This document shows, piece by piece, positions 2,782 to 15,639 of a stretch of DNA of 64,000 nt. The position numbers and the translations under genes are program-made. Each line of letters begins with the position of its first letter. The stretch's first letter is position 1. The notes beneath the pieces were generated by a model. It made no database searches. It saw only the letters and a program-made list of their open reading frames with translations, and was not told the origin of the DNA. The stretch comes from an uncultured Roseovarius sp. (lineage in GTDB: Bacteria > Pseudomonadota > Alphaproteobacteria > Rhodobacterales > Rhodobacteraceae): positions 372,001 to 436,000 of the forward strand of contig CANMBU010000003.1 of NCBI GenBank assembly GCA_947496175.1, read 5' to 3'.

Positions 2782-3810
2782 TTAAAGGTGAGGCGCTTTA
2801 GGTGACGTCTGAGCGCCCATCACCTCAGCCACATCCAGCATCCGGTTGGAAAAGCCCCACTCATTGTCATACCAGCACAAGATGCGCCCCATGGTCCCAT
2901 CCAATATGCGGGTTTCATGTGTGTCAAACACGCAAGACAGTGGATTGTGATTAAAGTCGCGCGATACCAGCGGCTTGTCAGACACACCAAGCACCGCCCG
3001 CATGGCCCCATTGGCAGCACTGCGCACCGCCTCCTCAATGGCCTCGGGTGATAGCGGTTTCTCACTCTCAAAAGTCAGATCAATCGCTGAGACATTTGGG
3101 GTTGGGACACGAATGGCTGTGCCGTCTAGTGTCCCGGCCAGTTTGGGCAGGACCAATCCAACGGCGCGCGCCGCTCCTGTGGTGGTCGGGATGATATTCT
3201 CCGCGGCGGCACGGGCGCGGCGCGCATCCTTGTGGCCGCTATCCAGCAGGCGCTGAGAGGCGGTGTAGGAATGAATCGTGGTCACAAACCCGCGTTTGAG
3301 GCCAAAAGCATCATCCAGAACCTTGGCAATCGGCGCCAGGCAGTTCGTGGTGCAGGACGCGTTGGAGACGATGGCATCGGCTTTGGTGATGTCCGTTTCA
3401 TTGACACCGAAGACCACTGTGCGTTCGACGCCTTTGCCTGGGGCCGATATCAGGACGCGCTGTGCGCCCGCCTCAAGATGCAGAGATGCCCCCGGCCCAT
3501 CGCGGAACACGCCGGTGCATTCGAGCACGATGTCCACATCGAGCTCTTTCCAGGGCAGGGCGCCTGGATCACGTTCGCGGGTCACCTTTATTGGACCACG
3601 ACCAATATCAAAACTGTCATCCTTCAGATTTACTGCGCCGGGAAAAGGGCCATGCACCGTGTCATGTTCCAAAAGTGCCGCATTGGTCTCCAGCGGCATC
3701 AGATCGTTGACGGCCACCACCTCAAGATCGTCACGTCCACTTTCGTAAAGCGCGCGTAGAACATTGCGGCCAATCCGGCCAAATCCGTTAATGGCAAGTC
3801 GCGTGGGCAT
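2782..3810 (-). CDS. gap: Type I glyceraldehyde-3-phosphate dehydrogenase (paralogue 1)
   Basis: INGFGRIGRNVLRAL, SNASCTTNCLAP, WYDNEWGFSNRM. Confidence 0.93.
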   Translation of the reverse strand: MPTRLAINGFGRIGRNVLRALYESGRDDLEVVAVNDLMPLETNAALLEHDTVHGPFPGAVNLKDDSFDIGRGPIKVTRERDPGALPWKELDVDIVLECTGVFRDGPGASLHLEAGAQRVLISAPGKGVERTVVFGVNETDITKADAIVSNASCTTNCLAPIAKVLDDAFGLKRGFVTTIHSYTASQRLLDSGHKDARRARAAAENIIPTTTGAARAVGLVLPKLAGTLDGTAIRVPTPNVSAIDLTFESEKPLSPEAIEEAVRSAANGAMRAVLGVSDKPLVSRDFNHNPLSCVFDTHETRILDGTMGRILCWYDNEWGFSNRMLDVAEVMGAQTSPKAPHL

Positions 3811-4104: not shown

Positions 4105-5106
4105 TTAGGACAGGCGCGCCATGGCGACGGCCACATCGGCCATGCGGCAGGAAAAGCCCCATTCATTGTCGTACCAGGCCAGCACGCGCACCAGACGCCC
4201 GCCTGTGACCTTGGTCTGGTCGGGGGCAAAGATTGAGCTTTCCTCAGTGTGGTTGAAGTCGATGGAAACCTTGGGTTCGGGATCATAGGCCAGAACGCCT
4301 TTCATCGGGCCTGCTGCGGCCTCAGCCACGACTTCGTTCACGTCTGCCTCAGTGACGTCTTTCTTGGCGATGAAAGTGAGGTCCACGGCAGAGACATTCG
4401 GTGTGGGCACGCGGATGGCCGAGCCGTCAAGTTTACCTTTAAGGTCCGGCAGCACTTCGCCAAGCGCCTTGGCAGCCCCGGTTGAGGTCGGGATCATCGA
4501 CATGGCCGCAGCACGGGCGCGGTAGAGATCCTTGTGGCGGCGGTCAAGCGTGGGCTGATCGCCGGTATAGGCGTGGATCGTGGTCATGATGCCGCTCTCG
4601 ATGCCGATGCCCTCATGCAGCACCTTGGCCACAGGCGCCAGACAGTTGGTGGTGCACGACCCGTTCGAGATCATTCGCTCACCGGGCTGCATATCCTGAT
4701 CATTCACACCGTAAACAACCGTGCGGTCCACGTTCTTGCCCGGCGCCGAGAGCAGAACCTTGCCCGCGCCACGCTCCAGGTGTTTCTTGGCCTTTTCGCC
4801 GTCGTTGAATTTGCCGGTACATTCCAGCACGACATCCACACCGGACCAGTCCAGCTCGTCCATGTCATAGGTCGAGAACATCTCCATCGGTCCACGGCCC
4901 AGATCCATGGTGCCATCGCCCAGAGTGATCTCATTGGGAAAGCGGCCATGCACGCTGTCATATTTCATCAGATGCGCCGCTGTCTCCAGCGGGCCTGTGG
5001 CGTTGACCTTCGCCACCTTGATGTCATTGCGAGTGCTGGCGGCGATATGGGCGAGGGTACAGCGACCGATGCGGCCAAAGCCATTGATGCCGACGGTAAT
5101 GGTCAT
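4105..5106 (-). CDS. gap: Type I glyceraldehyde-3-phosphate dehydrogenase (paralogue 2)
   Basis: MTITVGINGFGRIGRCTLAHI, SNGSCTTNCLAPVAKVL, WYDNEWGFSCRM. Confidence 0.95.
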   Translation of the reverse strand: MTITVGINGFGRIGRCTLAHIAASTRNDIKVAKVNATGPLETAAHLMKYDSVHGRFPNEITLGDGTMDLGRGPMEMFSTYDMDELDWSGVDVVLECTGKFNDGEKAKKHLERGAGKVLLSAPGKNVDRTVVYGVNDQDMQPGERMISNGSCTTNCLAPVAKVLHEGIGIESGIMTTIHAYTGDQPTLDRRHKDLYRARAAAMSMIPTSTGAAKALGEVLPDLKGKLDGSAIRVPTPNVSAVDLTFIAKKDVTEADVNEVVAEAAAGPMKGVLAYDPEPKVSIDFNHTEESSIFAPDQTKVTGGRLVRVLAWYDNEWGFSCRMADVAVAMARLS

Positions 5107-5431
5107 GAACAATCTCCTGAAACGAAGGGGTTTGGCAGGCATATAGACCCAGGTTTCCCGGCCCGAAAGGTGGAAAATGCCCAAAGCCCCGGTGTTTGCG
5201 GTAACGGTTATCGCAAACTGGAGAAGTTACCCTCAAAGAGGGAAACAATGACGCCAAAAACACCGGATTTCGCCAGGAGTTTTCGACTAAAGCCTGTCGG
5301 AGACGTCAAGGCGCTGCCAAAAAGTTAACGGCTAAAAAGATACCATAAATCAATCAAATTTTTGTCTTTGTTTGCCTACATCTTCTGAAGGCACGCAGAT
5401 ATTTGTATGCGGTTTGTAGGTTTGATCTGTC

Positions 5432-6601: not shown

Positions 6602-8617
6602 TCAGAGCAGTGACTTCACCTTCTCCGCCACTGCCTCTGGCGTAATCCCGAACTTCTCGTAAAGCACATCTGCCGGGGCAGAGGCGCCAAAGCCATGCAT
6701 GCCGACAAAGCCGGATTTCTCGCGTTTGCCGCGTTCGCCGTAAAGCCAGCGGTCCCAGCCGAAGCGGATCGCGGCCTCAACCGCCACGCGGACCGGGCCA
6801 GCGGGTAGAACCTTGCGGCGGTAGGCCTCGTCCTGCTCCTCGAAAAGCTCCCAGCAGGGCATGGAGACGACGCGCGTGCCAATCCCCTCGGCCTGCAGCA
6901 GATCGCGCGCCTTCATGGCAATCTCGACCTCAGAGCCCGTCGCCATGAGGAGCGCCTGACGTTTTCCGTCCGCATCAGCCAGTACATAGGCGCCTTGGGC
7001 GGTGAGGTTGCGCTGTTTGTGCTCGGTGCGCAGCGTCGGCAGACCTTGCCGCGTCAAGGACAGCACGGAAGGTGTTGATTTTGAAGACAAAGCCAGTTCC
7101 CAAGACTCTGCCGTCTCAACCGTGTCGCAGGGGCGGAACACAAACGTGTTGGGCGTCGCACGGCTGATCGCCAGATGCTCAACCGGTTGGTGTGTGGGGC
7201 CATCTTCGCCCAAACCAATGCTGTCATGGGTCATGACAAACACCGTGGGCACTTTCATCAATGCCGCCAGACGCATTGCGGGGCGCGCATAATCAGTGAA
7301 GCACATGAAGGTGCCGCCATAAGGCTTGATCCCGCCATGCAGGGCCATGCCGTTCATGGCCGCCGCCATGCCGTGCTCGCGGATACCGTAATGGATGTAT
7401 CGGCCTTTGCGGTTGGTGTCGTCAAACACCGTCATGTCACCGGATTTGGTGTTGTTAGACCCGGACAGATCCGCCGACCCGCCAATGGTCTCTTTCATGA
7501 TCGGATTGACCACTTCGAGCACCATTTCGCTTGATTTGCGGGTGGCGACCTTGGGGGCCTCATCTGTGATCTGCTGTTTCAGCGCCCGGATACGAGAGGA
7601 CAAGGATTTGGGTACGTCCCCGGCCATGACGCGGGCAAACTCGGCCTGACGGCGCTCGGACTGCTCCGCCAGGCGCGCAGCCCAGGCCGCATGATCCTCT
7701 GCACCGCGTTTGCCGATGGCTTCCCAATCGGATTTCACGTCGTCGGGCACTTCAAACGGTCCATAGGGCCACCCATAGGCGTCCTTGGCCGCCCGGAGTT
7801 GTTCCGGATCGGTCAGCGCACCGTGACCCTTTGAGGTATCCTGTGCGGCATGGCCGAGCGCGATGTGGGTTTTGCAGGCGATCATTGTTGGACGACGACC
7901 CGTTTTGGCTTTGGTTAGTGCCGCATCAATCGCTTCGGGATCATGCCCGTCACATTCCAACACCTGCCATCCCGAGGCACGGAAGCGTTTGACCTGATCG
8001 GTGCGGTCAGCAAGATCGACCGTTCCATCAATGGTGATGTTGTTGTTGTCCCAAAGCACAATCAGCTTGCCGAGGCCCAGACGCCCCGCAAGTCCGATGG
8101 CTTCTTGGCTGACACCTTCCATCAAACAACCGTCTCCGGCCATGACATAGGTGTAGTGATCCACCAGTTTCTTGCCAAACCGTGCCCGCAGCGCTTCCTC
8201 GGCGATGGCAAATCCAACGGAGTTTGAAATCCCCTGACCCAGCGGACCTGTTGTGGTTTCAATCCCGTCATGCAGGAAATTCTCAGGATGGCCTGCCGTG
8301 ATCGAGCCCCATTGCCGAAAGTTCTTGATCTGATCGAGCGTCATGCCCGGACTGCCGGTGAGGTAGAGCAGCGAATAGACCAGCATCGAGCCATGCCCGG
8401 CCGATAAGATAAAGCGATCCCGATCCGGCCATTGCGGCGCGCTTGCGTCGAACTTCAGGTGCTTTTCAAAGAGCACTGTGGCCACATCGGCCATGCCCAT
8501 AGGGGCACCAGAGTGTCCTGAATTTGCGGCATGCACGGCATCCAATGTAAGGGCGCGGATGGCGGTGGCTTTGTTCCAATGATCGGGGTTTGCAGAGCGC
8601 AGGGCGGCAATATCCAC
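6602..8617 (-). CDS. tkt: Transketolase
   Basis: TPP motif [41 protein letters not shown] start at 8617 ([14 protein letters not shown]). Confidence 0.95.
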
Positions 8618-8806
8618 GGGGCAGCTTCCTTTGGGGCTAGGTCCTGTTGGGCTGGTGCATATCAGCCTACTCTCAAAGATCAAGCGCATCAGGCCTGCGA
8701 TTTGCACCGGAGCGCGCATTTTACATGCCGTTTGACCAAAGCGCTTCGCCTTGAACCCGAGACACCCGCGAAAGGCAAAACGCGGACGCCAACTGAGGGT
8801 CGCGCG

Positions 8807-9894: not shown

Positions 9895-10776
9895 TTACGC
9901 CACCATCTTTTCGACCGCATCCCCGAAAGAGGATGGTGTGGGGACAATTGTCACACCGGCCTCTTGCAGAATGTCGACTTTTTCTTGTGCGGATTCCCCA
10001 AAGGCGGACACGATGGCACCGGCGTGGCCCATACGCCGCCCTTTGGGAGCCGAAAGACCCGCAATATAGGCCGCGACCGGTTTGCTCATGTGATCCCGGA
10101 TGTATTCGGCGGCCTCGGCCTCTTGCGGGCCACCAATCTCACCGACCAGAACAACTGCGTCTGTGTCCGGGTCCGCTTCGAACAGCTCAAGTATGTCCTT
10201 GAAGCTTGACCCGTTGATCGGGTCTCCGCCGATGCCGATGGAGGATGACACGCCAATGCCGCGCTCACTCATCTGGCTGGCCGCCTCATAGCCCAGCGTG
10301 CCAGAGCGCCCGACGATGCCCACACGGCCCGGCTTGTAGATATGCGGGGGCATCAGACCGGCAAAACCTTCGCCAGGTGTGATGATGCCCGCACAGTTGG
10401 GTCCGATGAGGCGCATGCGCTTTTCTTCCTTATAGCGGCGCATGTAGCGTTTGACGTGGATCATGTCCTGCGCCGGGATGCCGTCTGCGATGCAGACACA
10501 GGTTTGGATACCCGCGTCCGCGGCTTCCATGATGCTGTCTGCTGCAAAGGGCGGGGGCACAAAGCTCACCACCAGATCCGCACCGGTTTCGGCCACAGCC
10601 CCTTTGACAGTGTTGAAGACCGGCAGACCAAGATGCTTGGTGCCGCCTTTGCCCGGGGTGACACCCCCTACAACATTGGTGCCGCGGTTGATCATATCCT
10701 GAGTGTGAAAACTTCCGATGCGGCCGGTGATGCCGGTGACAAGAACCTTGGTGTCTTTGTTGATGAGAATAGCCAT
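9895..10776 (-). CDS. mtkB: Malate-CoA ligase / succinyl-CoA synthetase alpha subunit
   Basis: [39 protein letters not shown]; paired with mtkA in a serine-cycle gene context. Confidence 0.83.
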
Positions 10777-11963
10777 CAGCTTGCCTCCGCCATTTGAGTT
10801 GCGCGCCATGCTGAGACAACTTTGTCAGCCGCTTCTGCCAGCGAGTTTGCTGTTTCGATGTTCAGACCACTCTCTGAGAGCAGCTTGAGACCTTCTTCGA
10901 CATTTGTGCCCGACAGACGTACCACCAGAGGCATTTTCAGATCGAGTTCCTTGACCGCGAGGATCACACCTTCGGCGATCCAGTCGCAGCGGTTGATGCC
11001 CGCGAAGATGTTCACGAGGATGGCTTCGACATTGGGGTCATTGAGCACCGCCTTGAAGGATTTAAGAACCCGCTCAGGGCTTGCACCGCCGCCCACGTCT
11101 AGGAAGTTGGCAGGCTCACCACCGGCCATTTTGATCATGTCGAGCGTCGCCATGGCCAGGCCCGCACCATTTACGATGCAGCCAATTTCGCCTTCAAGGC
11201 CGATATAGTTCAGACCGCGATCACCGGCATAGGTTTCGCGTGGGTCTTCCTGGCTCTTGTCGCGCAGCTCGGAAATCTTGGGATGTCGGTAGAGCGCATT
11301 GGTGTCAAAGCTCACCTTGGCATCGAGCGCCACGATCTCATTGCTGGCGGTCACCACCAGCGGGTTGATCTCGACCATGTTGGCGTCCATTTCCGACATC
11401 ATCTGGTAACAGCCCATGATGGTCTTGCTTGCCTGCGCGATGAGTTGGGGTTCCAGCCCAAGGGAGAAAGCAATCTCACGTGCCTGGAAGGCCTGCATGC
11501 CCACGGCCGGGTCAACGACCGAACGAATGATCGAGTCAGGCTCTTCGGCAGAGATTTCTTCAATCTCCATCCCGCCTTCGGCAGAGGCAACCACGACCAC
11601 GCGTTCCAATTTACGGTCCATCACGAAGCCCAGGTAAATTTCCTGCCCAATATCCGTGGCTTCTTCGATGTAAAGGCGGCTGACCATTTTGCCCTGTGGG
11701 CCGGTTTGATGAGTTACGAGCTTGCGGCCGAGCATCCATTGCGCGGCATCCCAAATCTCTTCTTCGCTTTTACAGATGCGCACACCGCCTGCTTTGCCGC
11801 GGGCGCCTGAGTGGATTTGTGCTTTGACCACCCAAGAGTCGCCCGAAAGTTCGGAACAGCGATAGACAGCCTGTTCTGGGCTGTAGGCGATACCCCCGCG
11901 CGGAATATTAACTCCGAATTTGCTGAGCAGTTTCTTAGCCTGGTATTCGTGGATATCCATCAA
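10776..11963 (-). CDS. mtkA: Malate-CoA ligase beta subunit
   Basis: [68 protein letters not shown]; resembles MtkA from recall; adjacent to hprA/sgaA. Confidence 0.85.
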
Positions 11964-12051
11964 ACGGACCCTCCTTTGAGAAGTATAGTCTCAATGTGGG
12001 CCATGTCTGATGGCAGAGCTATGTCCCTGCGGGTAAGAAATTGCGCACCGC

Positions 12052-12070
12052 GGGTAGGTGCGGGCTACCC
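12052..12070. promoter_or_regulatory. Putative operator, 19-bp inverted repeat upstream of mtkA
   Basis: GGGTAGGTGCGGGCTACCC; shares GGGTAGGT-N5-CTACCC with 14806-14824. Confidence 0.6.
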
Positions 12071-12229
12071 ATTGAACAGGTTTCTGGATGCAATGGGATG
12101 CGGAGGTTTGGATTTTCTTATTAAAGTCATAGTGTTTTGGCTACATGCCGTTTCACAGGGAAGTGGAATTTTGCAAAACTCCACATTGGAAAACTGCAAT
12201 TTTCCATTTCCTTTGCGGCAAACACGCTT

Positions 12230-12457
12230 CTACAAAATGCGGCGTATCGGTTCGCGGTTACAAAAAATGACTAGCTGGCCGGCATTATCGACCGCTTGAA
12301 ATCCGCGACGCTCAAGTTCTCGCAGGAAAGTAGTCCGACCAACATAACGTTCGATATCTCGTACGCTCCGCCTGATCACGCTTCCATCGCGCGCGGCCTT
12401 TGCGGCAAAGATGCCTGCCATCCAATGTTCAGGCGTAATCGCGCCATTTTGTGTCAT
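12230..12457 (-). CDS. Conserved-looking small hypothetical protein, 75 aa
   Basis: MTQNGAITPEHWMAGIFAAKAARDGSVIRRSVRDIERYVGR...; sits in the serine-cycle strand run. Confidence 0.6.
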   Translation of the reverse strand: MTQNGAITPEHWMAGIFAAKAARDGSVIRRSVRDIERYVGRTTFLRELERRGFQAVDNAGQLVIFCNREPIRRIL

Positions 12458-12491: not shown

Positions 12492-13475
12492 TTAATCCTG
12501 GCTCGGCGTTACCAGATCCCCGGGACGCTCACCTTTCAGGAACGCTTCCAAGTTATCGATGGCGCGATGGCCCATGGCTTCGCGCGTGCCATCCGTGGCA
12601 CTTCCCAGATGCGGGGCGAGAACAATATTGTCATAGGTTAGAAAGCGCGGATCAAGCGCAGGTTCATTGTGATAGACATCCAGTCCTGCTGCAGACAGTT
12701 TACCACTGTCGAGCGCATCAAAGAGCGCATCTTCATCCACCACATCGCCGCGCGCTGAATTCACTAGGATCGCGCCAGGTTTCAAAGCGCCAAACACATC
12801 GGCGTTGATCATTTTGTAAGTATCTGCGCCACCGGGGCAGTGCAGGGATAAGAAATCGGACTGCGCCGCAACCTCTGTCATCGACCCAAGCTGTTCGGCA
12901 TTGCCATTGGCCGCCTTGATGTCGTCTGGCACATCCCACGCATCCTGAAACACCACGCGCATGCCAAACCCGTTATGCGCCCGGCGCGCCATCGCCTGAC
13001 CGATGCGGCCAAACCCGATGATGCCGATTGTGGCCCCGGTGACCTTTTTGCCGATCATGTGAGTGGGCCGCCAACCTTCCCAGCCACCAGCTCGTGTTTC
13101 ACGCTCACCTTCGCCGATACGGCGCGCGGCGGCAAACATCAGGCCCATCGCCAAGTCAGCGGTGCAATCGGTGAGCACATCAGGCGTGTTGGTGACAGCA
13201 ATGCCGTTGGCGTGCGCCGCATCGACATCAATGTGATTGAAACCTACGCCGTAATTGGCAAAGATCTTCAGCTTGCCCTTCGCGGCAGGGTAGAACGCCG
13301 CCGGGATTTTATCCGAGACAGTGGGCATGATCACGTCATAGGTCTCTGCCGCGGTCATCCACTCCTCATGGCTCATGGACGTGTCGGGGTTGCGCAGCGT
13401 CACGTCGCCAAGCCCGGCCTGCTCAAGACGGTCTTCCGCCGCCTTGGGCCAGGCCCTGGTCACCAAAATTTTCAT
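12492..13475 (-). CDS. hprA: D-2-hydroxyacid dehydrogenase (hydroxypyruvate/glyoxylate reductase)
   Basis: GATIGIIGFGRIGQAMARRA Rossmann fold; NSARGDVVDEDAL; DVYHNEP; adjacent to sgaA. Confidence 0.85.
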   Translation of the reverse strand: MKILVTRAWPKAAEDRLEQAGLGDVTLRNPDTSMSHEEWMTAAETYDVIMPTVSDKIPAAFYPAAKGKLKIFANYGVGFNHIDVDAAHANGIAVTNTPDVLTDCTADLAMGLMFAAARRIGEGERETRAGGWEGWRPTHMIGKKVTGATIGIIGFGRIGQAMARRAHNGFGMRVVFQDAWDVPDDIKAANGNAEQLGSMTEVAAQSDFLSLHCPGGADTYKMINADVFGALKPGAILVNSARGDVVDEDALFDALDSGKLSAAGLDVYHNEPALDPRFLTYDNIVLAPHLGSATDGTREAMGHRAIDNLEAFLKGERPGDLVTPSQD

Positions 13476-13490
13476 TTATCTTCCTGTCTT

Positions 13491-14702
13491 TCAGGCCGCT
13501 TTCACGACCGGCGCGTTCACATTAGGTGTGGTCGCACGAAATTCGGCTTGTGCCGCGGCCACGCCGGACCCTGGCTCAATTTTCGCACCGGCGTCAACCA
13601 GAGCCATTTCCGCCGCAGAAATTGCACCGCAGAGCATGACCGGGTTGAGAGAGCCCAAATGCCCGATACGGAAGGCTTTGCCCATCAGTTTGTTGAGACC
13701 TGTACCCAGCGACGTTTGGTACTTGTAATAGGCGGTCGAGATCACATCGCGTGCGTCCACACCCTCAGGAGCGTAAATCGCCGAAACGGTGTCTGAGTGC
13801 CATTCGGGGCCACGCGCCACCAATTCGCACCCGTCCCATGCGCCTACGGCTGCACGGACACCTTCTGCCAAACGCTTGTGGCGTGCCCAGATGGTCTCCA
13901 TGCCCGTATCCAGCATCAAATCAAGCGAACACCGCAGACCGCGCAGAAGTTGGGTCGCAGGCGTGTAAGGGAAATAGCCGGTATCATTCAGCTTGATCAT
14001 ATCTTCAAAGCTGAAATAGCAGCGCGCCATACCAGCATTTTCAAGAGCCTTGTTGGCCGCAAGCGCTTTCTCCGACGCACCAAGAATGCCAAGGCCAGCA
14101 GGCAGCATAAAGCCCTTCTGAGAGCCGGAGACGGCGAGATCCACGCCCCATTTGTCCATCTCAAATTCGATGGACGCGATGGAGCTAACACCATCAACAA
14201 ACAGCATCGCAGGGTGGTCAGCGGCATCAAGCGCTTTGCGTACGCCCTCTATGTCTGACGTCACGCCAGTGGCGGTTTCGTTTTGCGTGGCAAAGACTGC
14301 CTTGATCTTGTGCTCTTTGTCGGCGGCGAGCCGCGTCGCGTACTCATCAACCGGCACGCCTTTGCCCCATTCGACGTCGATCACTTCGACATCAAGGCCC
14401 AGACGCTCGGCCATATCGACCCAGAGAAGAGAAAACTGACCAAACCGCGACATCAGCACCTTGTCGCCGGCCTGCAGTGTGTTTTGAATGGCCGATTCCC
14501 AAGCACCGGTGCCGGAAGAGGGGAACACGAAAATCCGACCCGTCTCCATGCGGTAGGCCTTTTTGAGATCAGTCAGCAGACCTTGGACAAAATCCGGAAA
14601 GTCCGGAGCGCGCATGTCTTCCATGGGCAGGTTCATCGCCTGACGGACAGGCTCTGGCACATTTGTTGGCCCAGGAATGTAGAGGTGTTGATATCCGTTC
14701 AT
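13491..14702 (-). CDS. sgaA: Serine-glyoxylate aminotransferase
   Basis: MNGYQHLYIPGPTNVPEPVRQAMN; SGSQKGFMLPAGLG PLP lysine region. Confidence 0.9.
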   Translation of the reverse strand: MNGYQHLYIPGPTNVPEPVRQAMNLPMEDMRAPDFPDFVQGLLTDLKKAYRMETGRIFVFPSSGTGAWESAIQNTLQAGDKVLMSRFGQFSLLWVDMAERLGLDVEVIDVEWGKGVPVDEYATRLAADKEHKIKAVFATQNETATGVTSDIEGVRKALDAADHPAMLFVDGVSSIASIEFEMDKWGVDLAVSGSQKGFMLPAGLGILGASEKALAANKALENAGMARCYFSFEDMIKLNDTGYFPYTPATQLLRGLRCSLDLMLDTGMETIWARHKRLAEGVRAAVGAWDGCELVARGPEWHSDTVSAIYAPEGVDARDVISTAYYKYQTSLGTGLNKLMGKAFRIGHLGSLNPVMLCGAISAAEMALVDAGAKIEPGSGVAAAQAEFRATTPNVNAPVVKAA

Positions 14703-14805
14703 AGTCGTCGCGCTCCATAACTCAATCTCTTTGACGGACGGAGCTAACATGCAATTTTCGTCTGAAAAGAGGGTTTTTTCGTCAAAGCATCCGAAACTGC
14801 CCAAT

Positions 14806-14824
14806 GGGTAGGTAATTCCTACCC
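14806..14824. promoter_or_regulatory. Putative operator, 19-bp inverted repeat between sgaA and a divergent luxR-type gene
   Basis: GGGTAGG-TAATT-CCTACCC, perfect 7-bp arms. Confidence 0.65.
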
Positions 14825-14973
14825 GCAAGGGTGAGAAAAAGCCGCGGAATCCCGGTCGGCATACTTTTGTATGCGGAATTTTCTTTTGATTTCATCGGGT
14901 TCTGATGGTCTACTGTCGCAAAGCATACCATCTGAAACTGGGCAGATGGCTATTGTCGAAAGAGAGATTCGGT

Positions 14974-15639
14974 ATGAAAATTGCCCAGGATATTATGGCA
15001 TTGGCTCAAAACCCTCCCATTCCGACACAAGACTTGCCTCAAGTGATTGTGGCGGACCGTCAATTGATCGTGTGTCAGGGAATCGGGTCTCTTGTGGCGC
15101 AGATTGCCGAGGTGGAACTTGGTGAATACGCAACCGACAAGGCCAGTCTCAAGGCGTTGCTGTCGAGGACCAGGGGTAAGACAATTCTGATCTTGGGCGT
15201 GCGTCTGGCGGATGGCGATTTGACCCATGTGCTTGATATGGTGCGCAAAGATCATCCTGAGGTGATGGTTGTCGTGGTGGCCGAAGACAGCGAGTTTGCC
15301 TTCATCCGAACGGCGATCAAATCCGGCGCCAACTCGGTTTGCATGATGGGGCAGGTGCTCACCAGCCTGCCACGCATTTTGGGCAAGCTGATTGAGGGCC
15401 ATTCAATTGTGCCTACGGATATCTTGCGTAAGCTGACGTCCGAGGCAGCGGACACCCTTTCTCGGCGCGAGCATGAAATCCTCGGGCTTTTGGGCGATGG
15501 ACTGACGAATTTCCAGATTTCCGCGCGGCTGGGGCTGAGCGAGAATACGGTGAAATATTACCTCAAGGCAATTTACCAAAAGTTGGAGGTGAATTCTCGT
15601 GGGGCGGCTATCGCGAAATATGTGGCTGGAAATTACTGA
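14974..15639 (+). CDS. LuxR-family transcriptional regulator with degenerate receiver-like domain
   Basis: C-terminal Ger[48 protein letters not shown]-terminal receiver-like fold without the usual phosphoacceptor Asp. Confidence 0.85.

Follow-up and report, generated by a model that had tools for sequence, protein, structure and literature searches.

A conserved outward-facing CTACCC repeat as the probable operator core of a local serine-cycle circuit in Roseovarius

Introduction

The serine cycle is a main bacterial route for one-carbon assimilation. Its known regulator is QscR of Methylobacterium, a CbbR-like protein of the LysR family, which controls clustered serine-cycle genes together with its own transcription, also activates glyA, and is itself encoded away from the serine-cycle genes (PMC2680597). 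Two regulators of another family are relevant because of the DNA they bind. NarL of Escherichia coli combines a receiver fold with a LuxR-type helix-turn-helix (HTH), is phosphorylated by a kinase, and binds TACCC half-sites as dimers on inverted heptamers in a preferred 7-2-7 arrangement (site TACCCCTAAAGGGGTA), with several sites also present at one promoter (PMC4549865). BldM of Streptomyces is an orphan NarL-type protein reported to act independently of phosphorylation; it governs a large sporulation regulon through a 16-bp box (TCACcCgnncGgGTGA), a head-to-head 6-4-6 palindrome with the half-site GGGTGA (PMC4125116). For atypical receiver regulators in general, phosphorylation-free action is possible, and how they are switched has been described as unsolved (PMC12632262).

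The present study concerns 64,000 nucleotides of DNA from an uncultured Roseovarius sp. (the window), in which a first-pass annotation had noticed a 19-bp inverted repeat upstream of two serine-cycle transcription units and proposed a dedicated operator for C1 assimilation genes. Like QscR, the regulator of the circuit that we propose would act both on a cluster of serine-cycle genes and on the transcription of its own gene. Unlike QscR, whose reach is broader, the candidate regulator carries a LuxR HTH in place of LysR domains and lies beside its targets, and no copy of the repeat (P1) was found here for glyA. The P1 half-site is similar to the ACCC/GGGT-like half-sites of NarL and BldM. However, the invariant pair of P1 is arranged the opposite way from the BldM box, tail-to-tail with a spacer of 6 to 8 bp, and GGGTAG-N7-CTACCC likewise runs opposite to the half-site orientation preferred by NarL. 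Thus, the regulator-plus-operator pair is of a familiar type, but its half-site arrangement is unusual. Beyond the case of QscR, the evidence presented here points, in the Roseovarius group and many other Rhodobacteraceae, to a regulator from a different family, together with the site it would bind and precisely which units it would control, all of which one protein and two short promoters suffice to test. It would also provide a compact example of pseudo-receiver control, with a very small and clearly bounded regulon.

Results

Both repeats of the first-pass annotation are found exactly where it had placed them. P1-A (GGGTAGGTAATTCCTACCC; 14806..14824) lies in the divergent gap between sgaA on the minus strand and luxR on the plus strand, and P1-B (GGGTAGGTGCGGGCTACCC; 12052..12070) lies upstream of mtkA-mtkB; as GGGTAG-N7-CTACCC, neither is assigned to a strand. 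P1-A is 103 bp upstream of the sgaA start codon (14702) and P1-B is 91 bp upstream of that of mtkA (11960). The earlier figures of about 104 and 89 bp are thereby slightly corrected, and the similarity of the two promoter distances stands. With up to three mismatches allowed, the window contains nine strand-matches against 2.05 expected in shuffles, and none of 100 shuffles reached nine. Genome-wide statements are the outcome of pattern searches. In the 3.85-Mb genome, exact GGGTAG-N7-CTACCC occurs twice, as P1-A and P1-B, so the motif is not frequent at non-promoter positions. Among 397 genomes of the family, nearly all from other genera, only seven more exact core sites (~0.02 per genome) lie outside the serine-cycle locus, and most of those checked fall within reading frames. 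The reversed control pattern is far commoner in the same sample.

A relaxed pattern (spacer 6 to 8, arms with R/Y) brings up one more site in this genome, which is absent from three close relatives; only P1-A and P1-B are common to the four genomes. No P1 copy bringing in glyA, ppc or ftfL was found in this genome. Two candidates for a wider regulon were discarded: a one-mismatch site (C1:457910) that falls in a reading frame among ABC-transporter genes, and a third exact site ahead of thrS in one relative (G021), which we take as chance.

The gene names given to the neighbours by the first-pass annotation were upheld. The product of mtkA (10776..11960, minus strand), the malate-CoA ligase beta subunit, scores 690.7 bits against NF010647 (cut-off 604). 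Family matches were obtained for mtkB (malate/succinate-CoA ligase alpha subunit; 9895..10809, minus strand) and for hprA (hydroxypyruvate/glyoxylate reductase family; 12492..13475, minus strand). The product of sgaA (13491..14702, minus strand) fits the serine-glyoxylate/BhcA group of class-V aminotransferases; since its 564.7 bits on the BhcA model fall below the cut-off of 650, its exact substrate is read from the context. Between hprA and mtkA, a 75-aa reading frame (12230-12457, minus strand) has no Pfam or NCBIfam match and may be a small gene or chance. Elsewhere in the window, two type I glyceraldehyde-3-phosphate dehydrogenase genes lie close together (2782-3810 and 4105-5184), and a transketolase gene occupies 6602-8719.

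The gene divergent from sgaA, luxR (14974..15639, plus strand), encodes a NarL/FixJ-type protein. It matches GerE (1.5e-17) and aligns over its full length to ChrA, VraR and NarL. The AlphaFold model (mean pLDDT 82.5) has NarL topology, (beta-alpha)5 plus four helices, that is, a receiver fold followed by the four-helix LuxR HTH, as in NarL/FixJ proteins. Foldseek places RcsB first (1.4e-13; best fold matches 5vxn and 6zj2), and other NarL/FixJ regulators match too. RcsB shares the overall fold of both domains at ~23% identity; its phospho-site is intact and its DNA box is of a different kind. In the alignment, the window protein has Gly75 at the position of the phospho-acceptor Asp and Asp28-Arg29 at the acidic pair, and the Lys is lost. 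These changes are common to all Roseovarius-clade proteins aligned, and the window protein gave no match to Pfam Response_reg. Because the phospho-acceptor Asp, acidic pair and Lys are not intact, the protein is, judged from its sequence, a pseudo-receiver regulator in the Roseovarius clade. Distant LuxR homologues keep the phospho-acceptor Asp, and one of them matches Response_reg. No kinase gene was noticed among the genes adjoining luxR. A literature search, from which most subscription journals were out of reach, found nothing on this LuxR-type regulator.

Conservation was followed in 56 loci encoding the LuxR protein, of which 53 include sequence upstream of luxR and three are cut inside the gene. 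At least 51 of the 53 carry GGGTRG-N6/7-CYACCC in the gap ahead of luxR, down to 41-44% protein identity, and the two remaining loci (L044 and L060) have near matches; the repeat is thus conserved upstream of orthologous genes. Loci that appeared negative with the spacer fixed at 7 were accounted for by a spacer of 6. The gap is shared by divergent luxR and sgaA (or mcl); in the loci without sgaA (L043, L049 and L051), P1 lies between mcl and luxR.

The position of P1 also follows the transcription units. In most relatives the malyl-CoA lyase gene mcl (CitE family) stands ahead of mtkA. Where (mcl-)mtkAB forms a separate unit, P1 is found at its head in 28/28 loci, 91-197 bp before the unit, whereas a second P1 occurs in 0/20 loci in which (mcl-)mtkAB is contiguous with sgaA or hprA; as the loci are related by descent, these raw counts overstate the statistics. 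In four of the 28 (L043, L049, L051 and L060) mcl directly adjoins luxR, and the site counted there is the one in the luxR gap; without them the count is 24/24. The contrast holds after near-identical loci are merged (24 versus 12 groups at 95% identity). A tree built from the mtkA, mtkB and luxR proteins places at least three switches of arrangement on supported branches, and parsimony counts six; the presence of P1 is concordant with every one.

The invariant part of P1 consists of two outward-facing CTACCC half-sites. G and C are tolerated at position 5 in one arm and at position 2 in its partner, and the remaining arm positions are fixed. Of the motif as first proposed, the arms stand and the fixed spacer of 7 does not, the spacer being 6, 7 or 8 among loci. 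N6 and N7 operators even occur within the same genome (L015-L017, L038-L040), an unusual feature if a single rigid dimer is bound. A third half-site, GGGT, lies 4 bp beyond P1 on the sgaA-luxR side in 25/51 loci, against a background of 0.9%. In the window it reads GGGTGA (14829-14834), identical to the BldM half-site, and forms with the right arm of P1-A a 6-4-6 dyad, CTACCC-GCAA-GGGTGA (14819..14834, plus strand). The corresponding BldM box is TCACCC-N4-GGGTGA; the window dyad occurs only once in the whole genome as CTACCC-N4-GGGTGA, and is not conserved at the mtk promoter. The overlapping ACCC-GCAA-GGGT noted earlier at the sgaA site is real, as a part of this 16-bp dyad. A weaker dyad to the left, CTGCCC-AAT-GGGTAG (14797..14811, plus strand), has a partly conserved flank.

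Between P1-B and mtkA, the GGGTA half-site previously seen at 12031, 21 bp from the mtkA site, also proved genuine and is conserved as GGGTAAGAA (leftwards TTCTTACCC; 12031..12039, plus strand), a further half-site or a promoter element. Its distance to P1-B is 21 bp in two lineages and ~41 bp in others. The outer half-sites, including the third half-site dyad, show no conservation at the B sites. We infer that the 19-bp repeat would form the inner pair within a larger CTACCC array, its two arms belonging to two adjacent dimer sites; this is put no more firmly because conservation of the outer half-sites fails on the mtk side and because a single genome can hold both N6 and N7 spacers. Loci of other genera have a complete CTACCC-N4-GGGTAG dyad ~30-57 bp ahead of the luxR start. 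Such 6-4-6 dyads near luxR resemble the NarL and BldM boxes.

A second palindrome accompanies P1. P2-A (GCATAC-TTTT-GTATGC; 14859..14874, no strand assigned) is unique in the genome, and nearly every relative keeps its pattern GCATRC-N4-GYATGC on the right-hand side of P1. At the mtk side it is degenerate: P2-B (GGATGC-AATG-GGATGC; 12086..12101, no strand assigned) lies 15 bp from P1-B, and the degenerate form has about the same spacing at other B sites. Measured from centre to centre, the distances between P1 and P2 form separate groups near 32, 39, 50 and 60 bp. Helical phasing is given no weight here, since the groups are suggestive yet give no clean fit and kinship among the loci is uncorrected. 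In the distant locus L065, P1 is kept and P2 is weak or missing.

The linkage between site and regulator extends to other genera. Homologues of mtkA are present in 93/397 family genomes, and close LuxR homologues coincide exactly with the 81-83% mtkA clade. When 74 loci of other genera were inspected, 44 had a related, mostly distant LuxR gene near the serine-cycle genes. GGGTRG-N6-8-CYACCC (mostly N8) and/or CTACCC-N4-GGGTAG lies within 450 bp upstream of that gene in 39/44 loci, as compared with 2.7% of the control windows taken from these loci; the motif is missing in the other five. In loci without the LuxR gene, it was found at 0/25 sgaA and 1/29 mtkA promoters (1/54 together). The half-site thus stays with the LuxR gene even where the proteins have diverged widely, and no other available evidence speaks as strongly for the LuxR protein as the binder. 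Serine-cycle clusters of the other mtkA type are without the LuxR gene; in one such locus (L211:2271-3734), the gene divergent from sgaA instead encodes a short-chain acyl-CoA regulator of the RamB/ScfR type.

Discussion

P1 is conserved at its target promoters, rare elsewhere and linked to a regulator gene, as is expected of a transcription-factor operator. We consider it very likely that P1 is the operator core of a local serine-cycle circuit run by the adjacent LuxR/NarL-type protein, which is the predicted binder by fold, residues and linkage. The proposal of a dedicated C1-assimilation operator finds strong support in footprint, unit heads and LuxR linkage for sgaA-hprA and (mcl-)mtkAB; it does not extend to all C1 genes. 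The regulon would be tiny, comprising two promoters here, those of the sgaA-hprA and (mcl-)mtkAB units, and presumably that of luxR itself. As mcl heads the mtkAB unit in most relatives, it is counted in their regulon. The adjacent regulator seems to govern the building of cell material from one-carbon compounds.

In the proposed circuit, LuxR/NarL-type dimers would bind CTACCC half-sites. Each target promoter would present the outward-facing pair GGGTAG-N6-8-CTACCC, often with weaker flanking half-sites, which two adjacent dimers could occupy. From this position, ~90-145 bp ahead of the start codon, the regulator would most likely activate sgaA-hprA and (mcl-)mtkAB. Many NarL-type proteins are activators acting from upstream sites, and each enzyme unit has P1 at a good distance ahead of it, for which reasons activation is favoured. 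From the shared gap, luxR transcription would be adjusted by its own product. Since the receiver has no phosphorylation site, the signal is probably the regulator's own level or a ligand, perhaps a serine-cycle intermediate, instead of a partner kinase. In this scheme the binder, activation, autoregulation, the signal and the arrangement of dimers are all inferred. More tentatively, one may imagine an undescribed pseudo-receiver protein that regulates the serine cycle throughout the family Rhodobacteraceae, with elastic outward half-sites 6-8 bp apart, a phased palindrome and direct sensing of C1/C2 metabolites; we regard this broader picture as doubtful.

P1 could instead be the operator of another regulator encoded elsewhere, with the LuxR protein bound to P2, whose 16-bp 6-4-6 form suits NarL-type dimers. 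In keeping with this, P2 has been retained next to P1, is found only once in the genome and can still be recognised at the mtk-side P1 sites, and the distance groups look as if two proteins cooperate on one DNA face. However, it is P1 that tracks the presence of the LuxR gene over ~100 loci and has retained an ACCC/GGGT half-site of the NarL and BldM kind, whereas P2 degenerates at the mtk promoters and fades in L065, where P1 persists. Furthermore, no other regulator gene stood out as a recurrent neighbour at these loci. We therefore judge this alternative improbable.

Even less probable is a core-promoter element or a general architectural site. Every separate transcription-unit head at the locus does carry the repeat, as such an element would require, but all other promoters of the genome lack it, and so do orthologous promoters where the LuxR gene is missing. 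With only two exact copies per genome, the repeat is no general promoter element, and on this rarity and this absence we rejected that reading. An RNA hairpin in the leader (attenuator, terminator or protein-binding stem), for which a (near-)perfect inverted repeat 91-103 bp from start codons in a possibly long leader might speak, is hardly credible and was rejected for its broken pairing, as 15 A/C and 6 G/T combinations at the variable pair of 51 sites disrupt it on one strand or the other, both sides changed in only two of the 51, the arms are fixed while the spacer varies, no T-run follows, and the repeat also serves the divergent gene.

Returning to P1 as the operator of the adjacent LuxR protein, one further copy was observed in a relative. 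In G007, an exact N6 copy (GGGTAGGGGGTGCTACCC; L244:2518-2535) precedes a pyruvate carboxylase gene by ~210 bp, by which the regulon might possibly extend to oxaloacetate supply.
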